From contig NZ_FTNT01000005.1 in NCBI RefSeq assembly GCF_900156495.1, forward strand, positions 64,148 through 128,147: a stretch of DNA of 64,000 nucleotides, in the 5' to 3' direction. This document shows, one piece after another, positions 8,868 through 22,923 of the stretch (positions are counted from its first letter, which is position 1; the number at the start of each line of letters is the position of its first letter). The stretch is from Williamsia sterculiae (GTDB taxonomy: Bacteria; Actinomycetota; Actinomycetes; Mycobacteriales; Mycobacteriaceae). The notes under the pieces were generated by a model. That model had not been told where the DNA came from. It ran no database searches and was given only the letters and a program-made list of their open reading frames with translations. A program made the position numbers and the translations under genes.

Positions 8868-10309
8868 TGTCGCAGGCTGCCGTCACCCAGTCCCCACCGT
8901 CGGGGCCGATCCGGGTCAGCACCGGACGCAACAGCGAACTGCTGATGCTGGTCCTCGCCACCGTGCTGTTCACCTTCGCGCTGGTCAACGTGGAGACCGC
9001 GCAGGAACAGAAGGTGTCCTGGGATCTGCTGAAGTACGTCGGCGCGTACCTTGCGCTCTTCGGCATCGCCCACCTCGTGGTGCGCCGGTTCGCCCCGTAC
9101 GCCGACCCCCTGATCCTGCCGCTGGTCGCCGCGCTCAACGGGTTCGGTCTCGTGCTGATCCATCGCCTCGATCTGGGAGCCGGTCGCACCGGCGAGACCG
9201 TCAACGCCACGGTCGATTCGCACAACGCCGATCAGCAGGTGCTGTGGACGGTGCTGGGCGTAGTCGTGTTCTCGGCGATCCTCATCTTCGTCCGCGATCA
9301 CCGCACGCTGTCGCGGTACAGCTACATCCTCGGCCTCGGTGGTCTGCTGTTCCTGGCCATCCCCGCCCTGCTGCCGTCGTCACTGTCGGAGATCAACGGG
9401 TCCAAGAACTGGATTCGCACCCCGCTGTTCAACATTCAGCCCGGCGAGTTCTCCAAGATCCTGCTCATCGTGTTCACCGCGTCGTTGCTGGTGTCCAAGC
9501 GCGACCTGTTCACCACCGCGGGCAAACACTTCCTCGGGATGGATCTGCCCCGGGCCCGTGACCTCGGGCCGCTGCTGGTGGCGTGGATCGTGACCATCGG
9601 GATCTTCGCGCTGGAGAACGACCTCGGTGGTCCGCTGCTGATCTTCTCCACCATCCTGGTGATGCTGTACGTGGCCACCGGGCGCATCGGATGGGTGATC
9701 ATCGGCATCGTCCTGTTCACCGTGGGCGCGGTGCTGGCCTACGAGCTGTTCCCGCACCTGCAGGTCCGGGTCGCGGTGTGGCAGGATCCGTTCTCCGACT
9801 TCGACGGCAGGGGCTACCAGGTGGGTCAGGCACTCTTCGGCCTGGCCACCGGTGGGGTGTTCGGCACCGGACTGGGATCGGGTCGACCCAACATCGTGCC
9901 GTTCGCCAACAGCGACTTCATCATCGCCACCGTGGGCGAGGAGCTGGGCCTGGCCGGTCTGGCGGCGATCGTGCTGCTGTACCTCGTGCTGATCGTCCGT
10001 GGCCTGCGCACCGGTCTGACCGTGCGTGACAGCTTCGGCAAGCTGCTGGCCACCGGGTTGGCGTTCACCATCGCCGTGCAGATCTTCGTGGTCATCGGCG
10101 GCGTCACCAAACTGATCCCGCTGACGGGCCTGACCACACCGTTCCTGTCCTATGGCGGATCGTCGCTGCTGGCGAACTACGTGCTGATCGCGATCCTGCT
10201 TCGTGTCTCGAACGCCGCCCGCGAACCCGACGGAGAGAAGAACGGGCCGAAGAAGAAGCCCGCGACACCGTTGCCGCAGGCTCCCACCCAGGTGGTGAAG
10301 CGATCGTGA
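8867..10309 (+). CDS. rodA: RodA/FtsW-type SEDS peptidoglycan glycosyltransferase
   Basis: A 480-residue polytopic membrane protein with about ten to twelve helices. SEDS landmarks include GSKNWIRTPLFNIQPGEFSK, the ENDLGGPLL loop with the conserved Asp, and the C-terminal TGLTTPFLSYGGSSLLANY. SEDS proteins polymerise lipid II glycan strands with a cognate class B PBP, here the adjacent pbpA. The ATG at 8867 overlaps the pstP stop; an upstream extension in frame from 8684 lies wholly inside pstP and is rejected. The stop overlaps pbpA by 4 bp. Confidence 0.95.
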   Translation: MSQAAVTQSPPSGPIRVSTGRNSELLMLVLATVLFTFALVNVETAQEQKVSWDLLKYVGAYLALFGIAHLVVRRFAPYADPLILPLVAALNGFGLVLIHRLDLGAGRTGETVNATVDSHNADQQVLWTVLGVVVFSAILIFVRDHRTLSRYSYILGLGGLLFLAIPALLPSSLSEINGSKNWIRTPLFNIQPGEFSKILLIVFTASLLVSKRDLFTTAGKHFLGMDLPRARDLGPLLVAWIVTIGIFALENDLGGPLLIFSTILVMLYVATGRIGWVIIGIVLFTVGAVLAYELFPHLQVRVAVWQDPFSDFDGRGYQVGQALFGLATGGVFGTGLGSGRPNIVPFANSDFIIATVGEELGLAGLAAIVLLYLVLIVRGLRTGLTVRDSFGKLLATGLAFTIAVQIFVVIGGVTKLIPLTGLTTPFLSYGGSSLLANYVLIAILLRVSNAAREPDGEKNGPKKKPATPLPQAPTQVVKRS

Positions 10310-11808
10310 ACGTCTCCATCCGCCGCGTGGTGATGGTGGTGATGGCCATGGTGGTGCTGTTGCTGCTGAACGCGACCTACGTCCAGGTGTTCAAGGCCGA
10401 CAAACTGCGCAACGACCCGCGCAACAACCGGGTCCTGCTCGACGAGTACTCGCGTCAGCGCGGCCAGATCACCGGTGGTACCGATCTGCTGGCACAGTCG
10501 ATACCCACCGAGGACCGCCTCAAGTACCTCCGCAGTTACCCCAACGGCAACGACGCGTCGGCGTACGCCTTCGCGCCGGCCACCGGGTACTTCTCGTTCC
10601 AGTACGGCAGTTCCGGTCTCGAACAGGCCGAGGACAGCATCCTCAACGGCAACGACGATCGGCTGTTCGGTCAGCGGTTCGTGGACATGTTCTCCGGGCG
10701 CGACCCGCGCGGCGGCAACGTGGTCACGACCATCAACCCGCGCGCCCAGCAGGTCGCCTACGACGCCATGCAGAAGGGCTGCTCGGGTGGATGCCGCGGC
10801 GCGGTGGTGGCGCTCGCCCCGAGCACCGGCGCGATCCTGGCCATGGTGTCGACACCGAGCTACGACCCGAACAAACTCGCCACCCACGATGCCGACGAAC
10901 GCGAGAAGGCCTGGAACAGCTGGACCAACGACCGCTACGAGCCGATGCTCAACCGCGCGATCAACCAGACCTACCCGCCGGGGTCGACGTTCAAGATGAT
11001 CACCACCTCGGCGGCCCTGGGCCAGGGTGTCGACGAGAACACGCGGTTGACCGCGAGCAACACCATCACGTTGCCCGACACCGTTACCCCGTTGACCAAC
11101 TACGGCAGCGAGACCTGCCCCAACTCCTCGGGTGGCACGGTGAGCCTGCATCAGGCGCTGCAGTACTCCTGCAACACCGCGTTCGTGCAGCTGGCGACGG
11201 AGAAACTGCGCAACCCCATCGACTCGTTCAAACGGCAGGCCAGCGCGTATGGCATCGACACGGACACGCCCAACATCCCGTTGGACGTCTCGGACTCGAC
11301 GGTCGGTCAGATCCCCGACCTGGCCGCGCTGGGTCAGTCGGCGATCGGTCAGCGAGACGTGCGGATCACCCCGCTGCAGAACGCCATGGTCGCGGCGACC
11401 ATCGCCAACGGCGGCGTGCGTATGCAGCCCTACCTGGTGGACAAGCTGCAGAGTCCCGACCTGAAAACACTGCAGACCACCCGTCCGCAGTCGGTCAACG
11501 AGCCGATCACGCCGCAGGTCGCCGCCACCCTCACCCAGATGATGATCGACTCGGAGAAGAACACCAGCGGGTCCGGTGGTGCGATCTCCATCGCGTCGAA
11601 GACCGGGACCGCCGAGCACTCGGCGAGCTCGGACGCCGCCGACACCCCGTACGCCTGGTACATCGCGTTCGGTCCGTCGAGCAACGCGCAGGTTGCCGTC
11701 GCGGTGATCGTGGAGAACGGCGACCGCGGCGTGCAGTCGACCGGTGGGTCGTCGGCGGCGCCGATCGGACGCGCAGTGATCAACTCGCTGGTAGGAGGTA
11801 ACGGATGA
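10306..11808 (+). CDS. pbpA: PbpA: class B penicillin-binding protein (transpeptidase)
   Basis: A 500-residue protein with an N-terminal signal anchor (about 5-25), a non-penicillin-binding domain, then the transpeptidase domain. SxxK is PGSTFKM with nucleophile Ser227 and Lys230, SxN is in QYSCNTAF, and KTG is in ASKTGTAE. It cross-links peptidoglycan outside the membrane, partnered with RodA. The GTG at 10306 overlaps the rodA stop. Just before its stop a strong GGAGGT (11794-11799) precedes an ATG overlapping the TGA. That ATG opens a 38-codon frame, not pknA itself. Confidence 0.96.
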
Positions 11809-11921
11809 CCTGGGCCGGGCAGCGTATGAGCCGTGCCGCCGACCGCCGTGGTGTCCGTCCGGCGGACACGATGCGTGGTTCCCGCACGCGGGTACCGACG
11901 AGGGGTGGGTGCAACCGATGA
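11805..11921 (+). CDS. 38-codon Arg-rich ORF coupling pbpA to pknA
   Basis: The ATG at 11805 overlaps the pbpA stop (ATGA) and sits 5 nt after GGAGGT. The frame runs 38 codons and its TGA (11919-11921) overlaps the pknA ATG (11918-11920). The product begins [19 protein letters not shown] and holds ten Arg residues. It fills the whole pbpA-pknA gap with overlapping junctions at both ends. It may be a leader peptide keeping ribosomes coupled from pbpA to pknA, or a small protein in its own right. No family recognised; function is inference. Confidence 0.5.
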
Positions 11922-13378
11922 GCCTGCAGAGTGGGACCACCATCGCCGATCGGTACCGGTTGATGCGACTGATCGCGACCGGCGGCATGGGACAGGTGTG
12001 GGAGGCCCTCGACACCCGTCTGGACCGGCGGGTCGCGGTGAAAGTGCTCAAGGCCGAGTTCTCCGACGACCAAGAGTTCCTCGCGCGCTTCCGCACGGAG
12101 GCGCAGACCACCGCCCGACTCAATCACCCCGGCATCGCGAATGTCTTCGACTACGGCGAGACGCCGGACCGCAACGGCGGTGCCCCGCTGGCCTACCTGG
12201 TGATGGAGCTGGTCAACGGCGAACCCCTGAACTCGGTGATCTCACGGATGGGCCGACTGCCCATCGCCAACTCCCTGGACATGCTCGAGCAGACCGGGCA
12301 CGCGTTGCAGGCCGCCCACGACGCCGGGTTGGTGCACCGCGACGTCAAGCCGGGCAACATCCTCATCACGCCGACCGGTCAGGTGAAGATCACCGACTTC
12401 GGCATCGCCAAGGCGGTGGACGCGGCACCGGTCACCCAGACCGGCATGGTGATGGGTACCGCCCAATACATCTCGCCCGAGCAGGCCCTCGGTGAGGACG
12501 CCACCGCGTCGTCGGACGTGTACTCGCTCGGTGTGGTCGGATACGAGGCGATCTCCGGACGCCGCCCGTTCCTCGGCGACGGAGCGATCACCGTCGCGAT
12601 GAAACACATCCGTGAGGTGCCGCCACCGTTGCCCGCGGACCTGCCCGCGAATGTTCGTGAGCTGGTCGAGACCGCGATGACCAAGGAGCCGGAGACCCGG
12701 TACCTCGACGGCGGCGAGTTCGCCGACGCCGTCGCGGCCGTCCGGGCCGGCCGTCGGCCACCACCGCCACGACGAGGGACCGGTGGTCTGGTGGTCCCCC
12801 CGGTGCCGCCGCCCTCGACCCGTGCCATGACCTCGGCGCAGCGACCGATGACGTCGCCCCCCACGTCCGGCCGGACCCGCGCCACCCCGGCCCCGCCGGC
12901 GACCCAGTCGTCGCGTCGGGCGCCTGCTCCCGCAGACGACGGGCGCTGGACCGGTGGCCAGAAGGCGCTGGCCACGATCGCCGTGCTGCTGCTGATCGCG
13001 GCGATCGGGCTGATCGGGTACTGGTTGCTCGGCAACAAGAGCACCGACACCACCCCGACGCCGTCGACCACCCCCACGGTCACCACCACCACCGAGGCCC
13101 CCGCGACGACCACCCAGCGCCGGACCACGACGACCGAGGAACCGACGACCACCGAGGAGACGACGCCCACCTCCACCACCGACGAGACCACCGAGGAGAC
13201 CACGCCCACGTCGGAGGCGACGACCACCACGCCGGAGACCACCGCCACGAGCGGTGGCGGACCCGTCATCAGCATCCCGATCCCCGGCGGCCCGGCCATC
13301 ACCCTCGGTGCCGGTGAGGCGCAGGCCCCGACCACCGGTGCCGACACCGCGACGAGCACTCCCCCCGGTGGCGTGTGA
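11918..13378 (+). CDS. pknA: PknA: eukaryotic-type Ser/Thr protein kinase
   Basis: A 486-residue transmembrane kinase. The catalytic domain (about 10-270) has the glycine loop [33 protein letters not shown] and the activation-loop [10 protein letters not shown]. One membrane helix (about 345-367) follows a Pro/Arg-rich linker. The outside segment is short and unusually Thr/Glu-rich (about 375-450), with no PASTA repeats. PknA phosphorylates cell-division and wall-synthesis proteins. ATG 11918 is chosen over GTG 11909 because it begins [13 protein letters not shown], has GAGGGGTGGG upstream and overlaps the 38-codon ORF stop. The TGA overlaps the pknB start. Confidence 0.95.
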
Positions 13379-15318
13379 TGTCCACCCCGCAACATCTCTC
13401 CGATCGCTACGAGCTCGGTGAGACCCTCGGTTTCGGCGGTATGTCGGAGGTGCACGCCGCCCGCGACCTGCGACTGCACCGCGACGTGGCCATCAAGGTG
13501 TTGCGCGCCGATCTGGCCCGCGACCCCACGTTCTACCTGCGCTTCCGCCGGGAGGCGCAGAACGCGGCCTCGCTGAACCACCCGACCATCGTGTCGGTGT
13601 TCGACACCGGTGAGGCCACCACACCCGAGGGCCCGCTGCCCTACATCGTCATGGAGTACGTCGACGGTGAGACGCTGCGCGACGTGCTCCGCGCGCAGGG
13701 TCACGTCGCACCCCGACAGGCGATGACCTGGATGGCCGATGTGGCTGCGGCACTGGACTTCTCGCATCAGAATGGCATCGTGCACCGGGACATGAAGCCG
13801 GCCAACGTGATGATCGACAAGTCGGGTGCGGTGAAGGTGATGGACTTCGGCATCGCCCGCGCCATGTCGGACTCCACATCGTCGATGACCCAGACGTCTG
13901 CGGTGATCGGTACCGCCCAGTACCTCTCGCCGGAGCAGGCTCGCGGTGAGAGTGTCGATGCCCGCAGCGACGTCTACTCGATGGGTTGCGTGCTCTTCGA
14001 ACTGCTCACCGGCGAACCTCCGTTCACCGGTGACTCCCCGGTCGCCGTGGCCTACCAGCACGTTCGCGAGGACCCCCGCTGGCCGTCGGCGGTGCGGCCC
14101 GAGATCCCACGTGAACTCGATTCCGTGGTGCTCAAGGCGATGTCGAAGAACCCGGCCAACCGCTACCAGTCGGCCGCCGACCTGCGCGCCGACCTGATGC
14201 GAGTGCTCGCCGGCGGCAAACCCGGCGCACCGATGCTGCTGTCCGACGAGGAGAAGACCGGGGTGATCACCACCGGTCCGCGACGTGCTCTGCGCGACGC
14301 CGGTGGTGGTCGGGGGGGCAGTTCGGCGCATCGCCGTTCCGACTCCGACGACGATCCGGACGACCGGCCGCGCCGCCGCTCGCGGGCCGCGCGGTGGGGG
14401 GTGGCCGCCCTCGTGGCCATCCTGGCGATCGTGGGCGTCACCCTGCTGCTGACCCGTCCGTGGGCCGAGACCTCGACTCCGCAGGTCGCCGTTCCGCCGG
14501 TGACCACCCTGACCGCCGATCAGGCACAGCAGGAACTGCAACGCCTCGGTTTCCGGGTGCTGGATCCGCTCGAGGAACCGAGCCTCACCGTGCCGGAGGG
14601 CAGGCCCACCCGCACCGCGCCGACGGCGGGGGTGCGGATACCGAAGGGTTCCAAGGTCGCGCTCTACGTCTCGTCGGGACCGCAACGGATACAACTGCCG
14701 CCGCTGGACGGCAAGACCCCGCAGGAGGCGATCGCCCAGCTTCGACAGCTCGGCTTCACCAGCACCCCGACGACCCAGAACGTGGTGTCCACGGACGCGC
14801 AGAACGGCAAGGTGGTGAGCAGTCAGCCACAGGCGGGCACCAATGCGCGGGTCACCGACCCGATCACCCTGCAGGTGGGCACCGGTCCCAAGCAGGTGGA
14901 CATCCCATCATTGGTGGGGTTGTCGCAGAGTGCCGCGTCGGCCGAACTCGACGACTTCGGGCTCAAGGTGGGCACGGTGAGCCAGGTCGACTCCGAACAG
15001 TCCGCCGGGACCGTGCTGTCGCAGAGCCCGACGTCGGGCACCCAGGTCGACGACGGGACGTCCGTGGACATCACGGTGTCGCGGGGCAACATCTTCCGCG
15101 TCCCGGATCTTACCGGGAAGACCTCCGCCCAGGCACGGACCGCGCTGACGGGAGCCGGGTGGAAGAACACCACGCTGACCGAGACCAAGCGCAACGTCCC
15201 GTTGGGCAGCCCCGACGACAACCGCGTGCTGTCGCAGTCGCCGGCAGCGGGTAGCGCAGTCCGCAACGACACGACCATCACCATCGTCGTCGGTCGCGCG
15301 AGTCTGCTGCCGAACTGA
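13378..15318 (+). CDS. pknB: PknB: Ser/Thr protein kinase with extracellular PASTA repeats
   Basis: A 646-residue kinase. The catalytic domain (about 9-275) has GFGGMSEVHAARD, VAIKVLR, HRDMKPANVM, DFGIARA and an activation loop with SMTQTSAVIGTAQY, whose Thr residues are autophosphorylation sites in the family. A juxtamembrane linker leads to one helix (about 340-360). Four PASTA repeats fill about 367-646; such repeats bind muropeptides or lipid II. PknB controls wall synthesis through CwlM, FhaA and MurJ, all encoded in this window. The ATG at 13378 shares TGATG with the pknA stop; a GTG lies one codon upstream. Last gene of the operon. Confidence 0.96.
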   Translation: MSTPQHLSDRYELGETLGFGGMSEVHAARDLRLHRDVAIKVLRADLARDPTFYLRFRREAQNAASLNHPTIVSVFDTGEATTPEGPLPYIVMEYVDGETLRDVLRAQGHVAPRQAMTWMADVAAALDFSHQNGIVHRDMKPANVMIDKSGAVKVMDFGIARAMSDSTSSMTQTSAVIGTAQYLSPEQARGESVDARSDVYSMGCVLFELLTGEPPFTGDSPVAVAYQHVREDPRWPSAVRPEIPRELDSVVLKAMSKNPANRYQSAADLRADLMRVLAGGKPGAPMLLSDEEKTGVITTGPRRALRDAGGGRGGSSAHRRSDSDDDPDDRPRRRSRAARWGVAALVAILAIVGVTLLLTRPWAETSTPQVAVPPVTTLTADQAQQELQRLGFRVLDPLEEPSLTVPEGRPTRTAPTAGVRIPKGSKVALYVSSGPQRIQLPPLDGKTPQEAIAQLRQLGFTSTPTTQNVVSTDAQNGKVVSSQPQAGTNARVTDPITLQVGTGPKQVDIPSLVGLSQSAASAELDDFGLKVGTVSQVDSEQSAGTVLSQSPTSGTQVDDGTSVDITVSRGNIFRVPDLTGKTSAQARTALTGAGWKNTTLTETKRNVPLGSPDDNRVLSQSPAAGSAVRNDTTITIVVGRASLLPN

Positions 15319-22889: not shown

Positions 22890-22923
22890 TGTCCGTTCCT
22901 TCCACAGGTGTCGCTGAACACGA

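Follow-up and report, generated by a model that had tools for sequence, protein, structure and literature searches.

Organisation of the pbpA–pknA junction

We analysed a 64,000-nucleotide (nt) stretch of the Williamsia sterculiae genome (contig NZ_FTNT01000005.1, forward-strand positions 64,148 to 128,147; hereafter the window, numbered from its first letter) and focused on the gap between pbpA and pknA. An earlier inspection of the same DNA (the original prediction) had proposed that this gap is filled by a 38-codon open reading frame (ORF) at 11805–11921, and the ORF is real: it starts with an ATGA on the pbpA stop behind a GGAGGT, and ends with an ATGA on the pknA start. We propose that it probably acts as a relay, by which ribosomes finishing pbpA would be handed over to pknA. 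The features of the region are the following.

10306–11808, + strand: pbpA, transpeptidase with PbpA dimerisation domain (Pfam PF00905, 1.7e-62, and PF21922, 7.1e-27; ORF list)
11794–11799, + strand: GGAGGT, Shine-Dalgarno (SD) sequence in the last pbpA codons, for ATG 11805 (sequence; anti-SD duplex −11.6 kcal/mol)
11805–11808, + strand: 5′ junction ATGA, start of the putative relay ORF over the pbpA stop TGA 11806–11808 (sequence, ORF list)
11805–11921, + strand: 38-codon putative relay ORF filling the pbpA–pknA gap (ORF list, translation; bridge rule in relatives)
11900–11909, + strand: GAGGGGTGGG, purine-rich stretch inside the ORF, candidate pknA SD (anti-SD duplex −11.1 kcal/mol for the 18 nt containing GAGGGGTGGG)
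11918–11921, + strand: 3′ junction ATGA, pknA start over the ORF stop TGA 11919–11921 (sequence, ORF list)
11918–13378, + strand: pknA, Ser/Thr kinase (Pfam PF00069, 2.5e-44; N-terminus MSLQ common to Gordonia and Williamsia)
13378–15318, + strand: pknB, PASTA kinase, following pknA in the coupled chain (NCBIfam NF033483, 1.5e-233)

The GGAGGT is spaced 5 nt from ATG 11805. Ten of the 38 residues of the predicted peptide are Arg, and neither Asp nor Glu occurs among the first 12. At the other end, ATG 11918–11920 opens a PknA N-terminus common to relatives, although pknA might alternatively start from the in-frame GTG 11909. We rejected an in-frame N-terminal extension of pknA, as the two ATGs lie 113 nt apart, which is not a multiple of 3. 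According to the ORF list and the Pfam and NCBIfam matches, the gene order is two FHA-domain genes, a PP2C phosphatase gene, rodA, pbpA, pknA and pknB. The pbpA start overlaps the rodA stop (GTGA, 10306–10309) and the pknA stop touches the pknB start (GTGATG, 13375–13380), so that the relay ORF would keep the run from rodA to pknB unbroken.

Bridging of the gap in related genomes

Junctions for comparison were drawn from named loci (the best 80 of 582) and from further genomes of the same family, in which they were taken from part of the 333 genomes, out of 401, with a match. The input comprised 250 sequences including the window, 241 with pknA and 240 with an adjoining pbpA, giving 208 distinct junctions; identical junctions were counted once, and the window shares its row with L256. 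The nine sequences left out for lack of a pknA match were all short matches from the window's own genome, and L240 was left out because pbpA is missing at a contig end. The named loci take in 17 Gordonia and 7 Williamsia, Dietzia was not identified among them, and the genus of the window is represented by one genome in the sample. Start codons were set by rule, in the survey and in the controls alike. For two genera known by their labels, g29 is presumably Mycobacterium, and g18, whose junctions correspond to those at the named Williamsia loci, is probably Williamsia.

The spacing between pbpA and pknA fell into two classes: 126 junctions had a gap of at most 8 nt (most often −4 and −1), none had 9–17 nt, and 81 had 18–147 nt, the remaining one (L072) having no assignable start. 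All 81 gapped junctions were bridged (80/80 without the window): 77 have a single ORF, and four (L127, L133, L140 and L148, all from g29) have two consecutive ORFs linked through ATGA or GTGA. Unbridged gaps and in-frame N-terminal pknA extensions would have been counted as failures, and neither occurred. Frames broken in relatives, which the original prediction had named, together with unchanged pknA expression, as the observation that would speak against it, and which would favour chance, were found in none of the 81. As a separate observation, L148 holds three copies of a repeat unit.

Both ends of the bridges follow a limited set of arrangements. The first bridge ORF overlaps the pbpA stop by −4 (NTGA) in 44/81 gapped junctions, the window included, and starts 2–8 nt after the first base of that stop in the other 37. 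At the 3′ end the bridge meets pknA through ATGA (43/81) or ATGNTGA (38/81), and the last bridge stop is TGA in 80/80 gapped junctions other than the window. Gap length modulo 3 is 1 in 68 of the 81, 0 in 11 and 2 in 2, the exceptions to 1 being the four double relays and those single relays whose start is displaced. Total bridge length varies from 6 to 50 residues, and the sequences differ too.

In Gordonia, pbpA and pknA overlap directly at all 17 named loci (ATGA in 15, TGATG in 2) with no ORF in between. At the Gordonia asplenii locus (L016), the window's GGAGGTAACGGATGA stands directly before pknA, as the pknA start itself. The 5′ junction of the window therefore looks like an old pknA start, and the GGAGGT at 11794–11799 is probably the ancestral pknA ribosome-binding site. 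Three of the seven named Williamsia loci are gapped, each bridged by an ORF of 8–21 codons. By pknA, g18 is a near genus (7/8 genomes with a match, 85–88% identity), and 5 of its 7 junctions are gapped. The bridges found in Williamsia and g18 are unlike that of the window (MRHDKGTR, MWHDKGTR and MSLYDRGTR, all 22 nt; MTCERGNG, 19 nt; and MSRGGIRGATTGFGSGERGNG, 58 nt), as is the Jongsikchunia bridge MRTSFVTERNSTAASGIAAVGTEWSDR (83 nt). Two of the Williamsia gaps, 58 nt long in W. serinedens (L017) and 19 nt long in an uncultured member of the genus (L013), have a common 3′ end and differ by 39 nt, or 13 codons. The original prediction had proposed conservation of the frame and both junctions in these genera as a check; Gordonia gave overlap and no ORF at 17/17 loci, and the gapped Williamsia were bridged at 3/3. 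The original prediction had also held that mycobacteria have no annotated gene at this place; by sequence, 33 of 69 distinct g29 junctions are gapped and 33/33 of these bridged. Within a Nocardia-type cluster the ORF is intact at gaps of 31, 34 and 37 nt, and in the members with 33 and 36 nt the base that is out of register is found ahead of the ORF start.

Statistical support and control gene pairs

Gaps were grouped at 65% identity into 30 clusters, and one random member per cluster was shuffled with the reading frame left free. All 30 clusters were bridged, against 9.3 expected from the shuffles (P=1.6e-17), and 22/30 also passed a tight junction rule, against 6.9 expected (P=1.2e-10). Neighbouring junctions of the same operon served as further controls, among the named loci and the window: rodA–pbpA was gapped in 0/81, pknA–pknB had 8 gaps among 76 scored with 2/8 bridged, and pbpA–pknA had 21 gaps among 80 scored with 21/21 bridged. 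A further control covered 864 kb of the genome that carries the window, made up of the window itself and two stretches of 400 kb, and considered same-strand neighbours with gaps of 18–150 nt. Among the other gapped pairs in this sample, 26/225 were bridged at the called start, and 35/225 with flexible starts, where 27.3 were expected. In the full set of 226, which includes pbpA–pknA mis-started at GTG 11909 and hence scored as unbridged, 26 were bridged under the permissive rule against 17.9 expected, and 14 under the tight rule against 8.6.

These figures bear on the simplest alternative, namely that the gap is functionless and its frame happens to be open. Stops are scarce in GC-rich DNA, and for the window by itself chance does well: when the 109-nt gap was dinucleotide-shuffled with the frame free and the flanks kept, 13% of the shuffles gave a single ATGA..ATGA ORF and 36% gave some permissive bridge. 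The lower figure reflects the flanking ATGA at the pbpA stop and at pknA, which stay fixed, and the window case alone is thus unremarkable; its significance comes from the relatives. There, the bridging of 81/81 gaps and of 30/30 clusters, set against 26–35/225 for other pairs of the same genome, makes chance a very improbable explanation.

Constraint on the frame and on the peptide

The original prediction had offered two roles for the ORF, metering of PknA through reinitiation or a basic micropeptide. Coupling of pbpA to pknA is the part that the comparison supports, with every gap bridged and both junctions recurring around unrelated filler; metering, in the sense of lowering or tuning PknA, is conjectural. 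As for the peptide, an action on PbpA, PknA or the membrane might be imagined from the open frame, the excellent ribosome-binding site and the richness in Arg, and in some groups of relatives the ratio of nonsynonymous to synonymous polymorphism (pN/pS) is well under 1 (0.37–0.47). Across the 30 gap clusters, however, neither peptide sequence nor length is conserved between lineages, the bridges of other lineages being unrelated and of 6–50 residues, so that the ORF does not behave as a conserved micropeptide. Searches of Pfam and NCBIfam with the relay peptide gave no match. GC content at the three codon positions is 0.68/0.78/0.73 in the relay ORF, without the bias at third positions seen in pbpA (0.59/0.49/0.91) and pknA (0.65/0.59/0.89). 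We therefore abandon the micropeptide claim and consider a functional peptide about as improbable as a frame left open by chance.

The frame itself presents another picture. In-frame pN/pS was 0.37–0.79 in 5/5 testable groups (from 4 clusters, small samples of 3–11 sequences each) and below that of both shifted frames, a pattern that fits translation under weak constraint. Together with the intact ORF at varying lengths in the Nocardia-type cluster, these ratios suggest that the frame is under selection. The peptide apparently is not.

Another possibility is that the gap acts as DNA or RNA, as a promoter, terminator or structured regulator of pknA, the ORF being incidental or an attenuator leader. 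In its favour, the gap is present where rodA–pbpA and pknA–pknB have none, and it holds a direct repeat, GCAGCGTATGAGCC at 11819–11832 and GCAACCGATGAGCC at 11911–11924, matching at 11/14 positions. The repeat may stem from a past duplication of the pknA start, but two-copy repeats of this small size often arise by chance. We found no promoter- or terminator-like site in the gap, the sigma-70 scan used for promoters not covering all actinobacterial ones; Rfam gave no match, and the gap folds no better than its shuffles (z 0.28). We rate a regulatory gap as slightly less probable still than chance or a micropeptide. As a separate observation, the bridges of L055 and L085 begin with MSPR, like pknA itself at these loci, a sign that the start of pknA may have been duplicated locally.

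A proposed relay between pbpA and pknA

Taken as a whole, the comparative sequence pattern is best explained if 11805–11921 is a relay, or bridge, ORF that preserves termination–reinitiation coupling from pbpA to pknA, a reading to which we assign a probability of about 78%. The anatomy of the junction, the overlapping state in relatives, and the unrelated ORFs that bridge all sampled gaps, two-relay series included, are observed; from them we infer a translated ORF, a pknA that depends on the handover, and a change that ran from overlap to gap. In the ancestor, pbpA and pknA would probably have overlapped directly, as ATGA or TGATG, a state still found in the sampled Gordonia. Some 113 nt would then have come in between pbpA and the present kinase-coding part of pknA, leaving the old ribosome-binding site and its ATGA behind at the pbpA stop. 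Ribosomes ending pbpA would restart immediately at ATG 11805 and read 38 arbitrary codons; having stopped at TGA 11919, they would begin again at the pknA ATG 11918. Selection would act on the open frame and on both junctions, and hardly on the peptide.

Published reporter work fits these spacings. In H. volcanii, reinitiation is almost lost once about 20 nt separate the genes, and in E. coli a spacing of 38 nt lowers it by 80–100% (PMC10666635); limits of this size agree with the empty 9–17 nt class and with the bridging of every gap of at least 18 nt.

Several points weigh against the relay, besides the ease with which shuffles recreate the window's layout. Eight of the 30 clusters fail the tight junction rule. 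The ORF of the Nocardia-type cluster usually starts 4–5 nt past the pbpA stop and ends in ATGCTGA, a looser stitch than ATGA. Bridging at other gene pairs of the genome exceeds chance by little (35 against 27.3 expected), which gives no support to a general rule. The at least 24 changes between the overlapping and the gapped state, which speak for the relay, were counted on a FastTree tree of 207 junctions read without branch support, and neither these changes nor the clusters are fully independent, but the bridging result does not hinge on a single lineage. Finally, pknA has its own plausible ribosome-binding site, predicted at −11.1 kcal/mol against −11.6 kcal/mol at the relay start, so that independent initiation is possible. 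Across the survey, the median anti-SD energy at pknA was −8.4 after a bridge, better than the −6.5 of same-base shuffles but weaker than the −10.9 of overlapping genomes, and at a cut-off of −5 the bridged and overlapping classes hardly differ.

Relation to known systems

The arrangement has counterparts in the literature. In mycobacterial interspersed repetitive units (MIRUs; Supply 1997, as cited in PMC12548453 and PMC2734929), an inserted short ORF lies at the start codon of a gene and is coupled to that gene by −4 spacing; MIRUs are dispersed, with 41 locations in M. tuberculosis H37Rv (PMC2734929). The window's short ORF is likewise coupled at NTGA sites to neighbours in the same direction and is MIRU-like in layout. 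It differs in that MIRUs are dispersed repeats, whereas the insert of the window is single-copy and the bridges at pbpA–pknA vary in sequence among lineages. An origin of the insert from a dispersed, mobile repeat of MIRU type, inserted at the ATGA site, is as improbable as a regulatory gap, given that the next best match in the window's genome is 23 nt (E 0.036) with only the self match above 34 bits, and that the 19-nt core of a common g29 bridge (at most one mismatch) occurs only at pbpA–pknA, in 4/4 carrier genomes and 0/3 others. In open-licence literature we found no paper on a MIRU with senX3 translational coupling and, among the matches listed, no relevant paper on MIRU-like units in Nocardia, Gordonia or Rhodococcus.

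A second parallel is offered by the small ORFs coupled through RTGA, which are over-represented in mycobacteria, with the linkage sometimes kept and the peptide not (Shell 2015, PMC4633059). The window ORF resembles them as an unannotated ORF of 38 residues, within their range of 5–50, whose TGA forms ATGA at 11918. As in that set, linkage is kept here while the peptide diverges (81/81 bridged in 30 clusters, with a 3′ ATGA in 43/81). The set tested for enrichment in that study is leaderless and lies at transcript 5′ ends, whereas the window ORF is operon-internal; being stitched at both ends, it would need no transcription start of its own. Another small ORF in an operon gap, mgtQ between mgtC and mgtB, promotes translation of the next gene (PMC8092293), which is what we propose for the window ORF. 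However, mgtQ is described as using stem-loops and early acidic codons, whereas folding in the window is ordinary and the first 12 residues are free of Asp and Glu. The principle is therefore already known from MIRUs and coupled small mycobacterial ORFs, and the window ORF would extend the RTGA layout to both ends inside an operon. No paper on a pbpA–pknA small ORF or on pbpA–pknA translational coupling was found in open-licence literature.

The pbpA–pknA junctions amount to a natural experiment, many times repeated, on whether ribosomes must pass directly from gene to gene within an operon, with none of the 81 gaps of at least 18 nt left unbridged. The outcome is in line with reporter work on other organisms, where 20–40 nt breaks reinitiation, and points to PknA synthesis being tightly linked to PbpA synthesis. 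A further lesson is that a small ORF inside an operon may have a good ribosome-binding site and yet code for no functional peptide. A more speculative extension, which we consider doubtful, is that strong handover selection at pbpA–pknA turns every surviving insertion into one or more relays, whose number and quality would form an evolvable dial of the PbpA:PknA ratio. If this were true, each relay would cost a fraction of the ribosomes, and the peptides would be content-free by-products.

Additional observations

A second filled gap occurs in the window at 22890–22923 (− strand, 34 nt), where an ATGA..ATGA ORF, MIVFSDTCGRNGQ, lies between two script-called genes. On contig C10 of genome G000, at 251011–251128 (within L278), three mini-ORFs (MTGRRP, MTGRRP and MTGADHGG...) are stitched by ATGA between two script-called genes; this chain is possibly a multi-step relay derived from tandem duplication. 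Contig CAJCHX010000372.1 (L021), titled Acidobacteriaceae bacterium, has a pbpA–pknA junction closely like those of named Tsukamurella loci, and is for this reason probably misbinned. In genus g30, one genome (G029, contig C55:167169–167993) encodes a second PknA-like kinase, 74% identical to the kinase region of the window PknA, and several other g30 genomes have two strong PknA matches as well.
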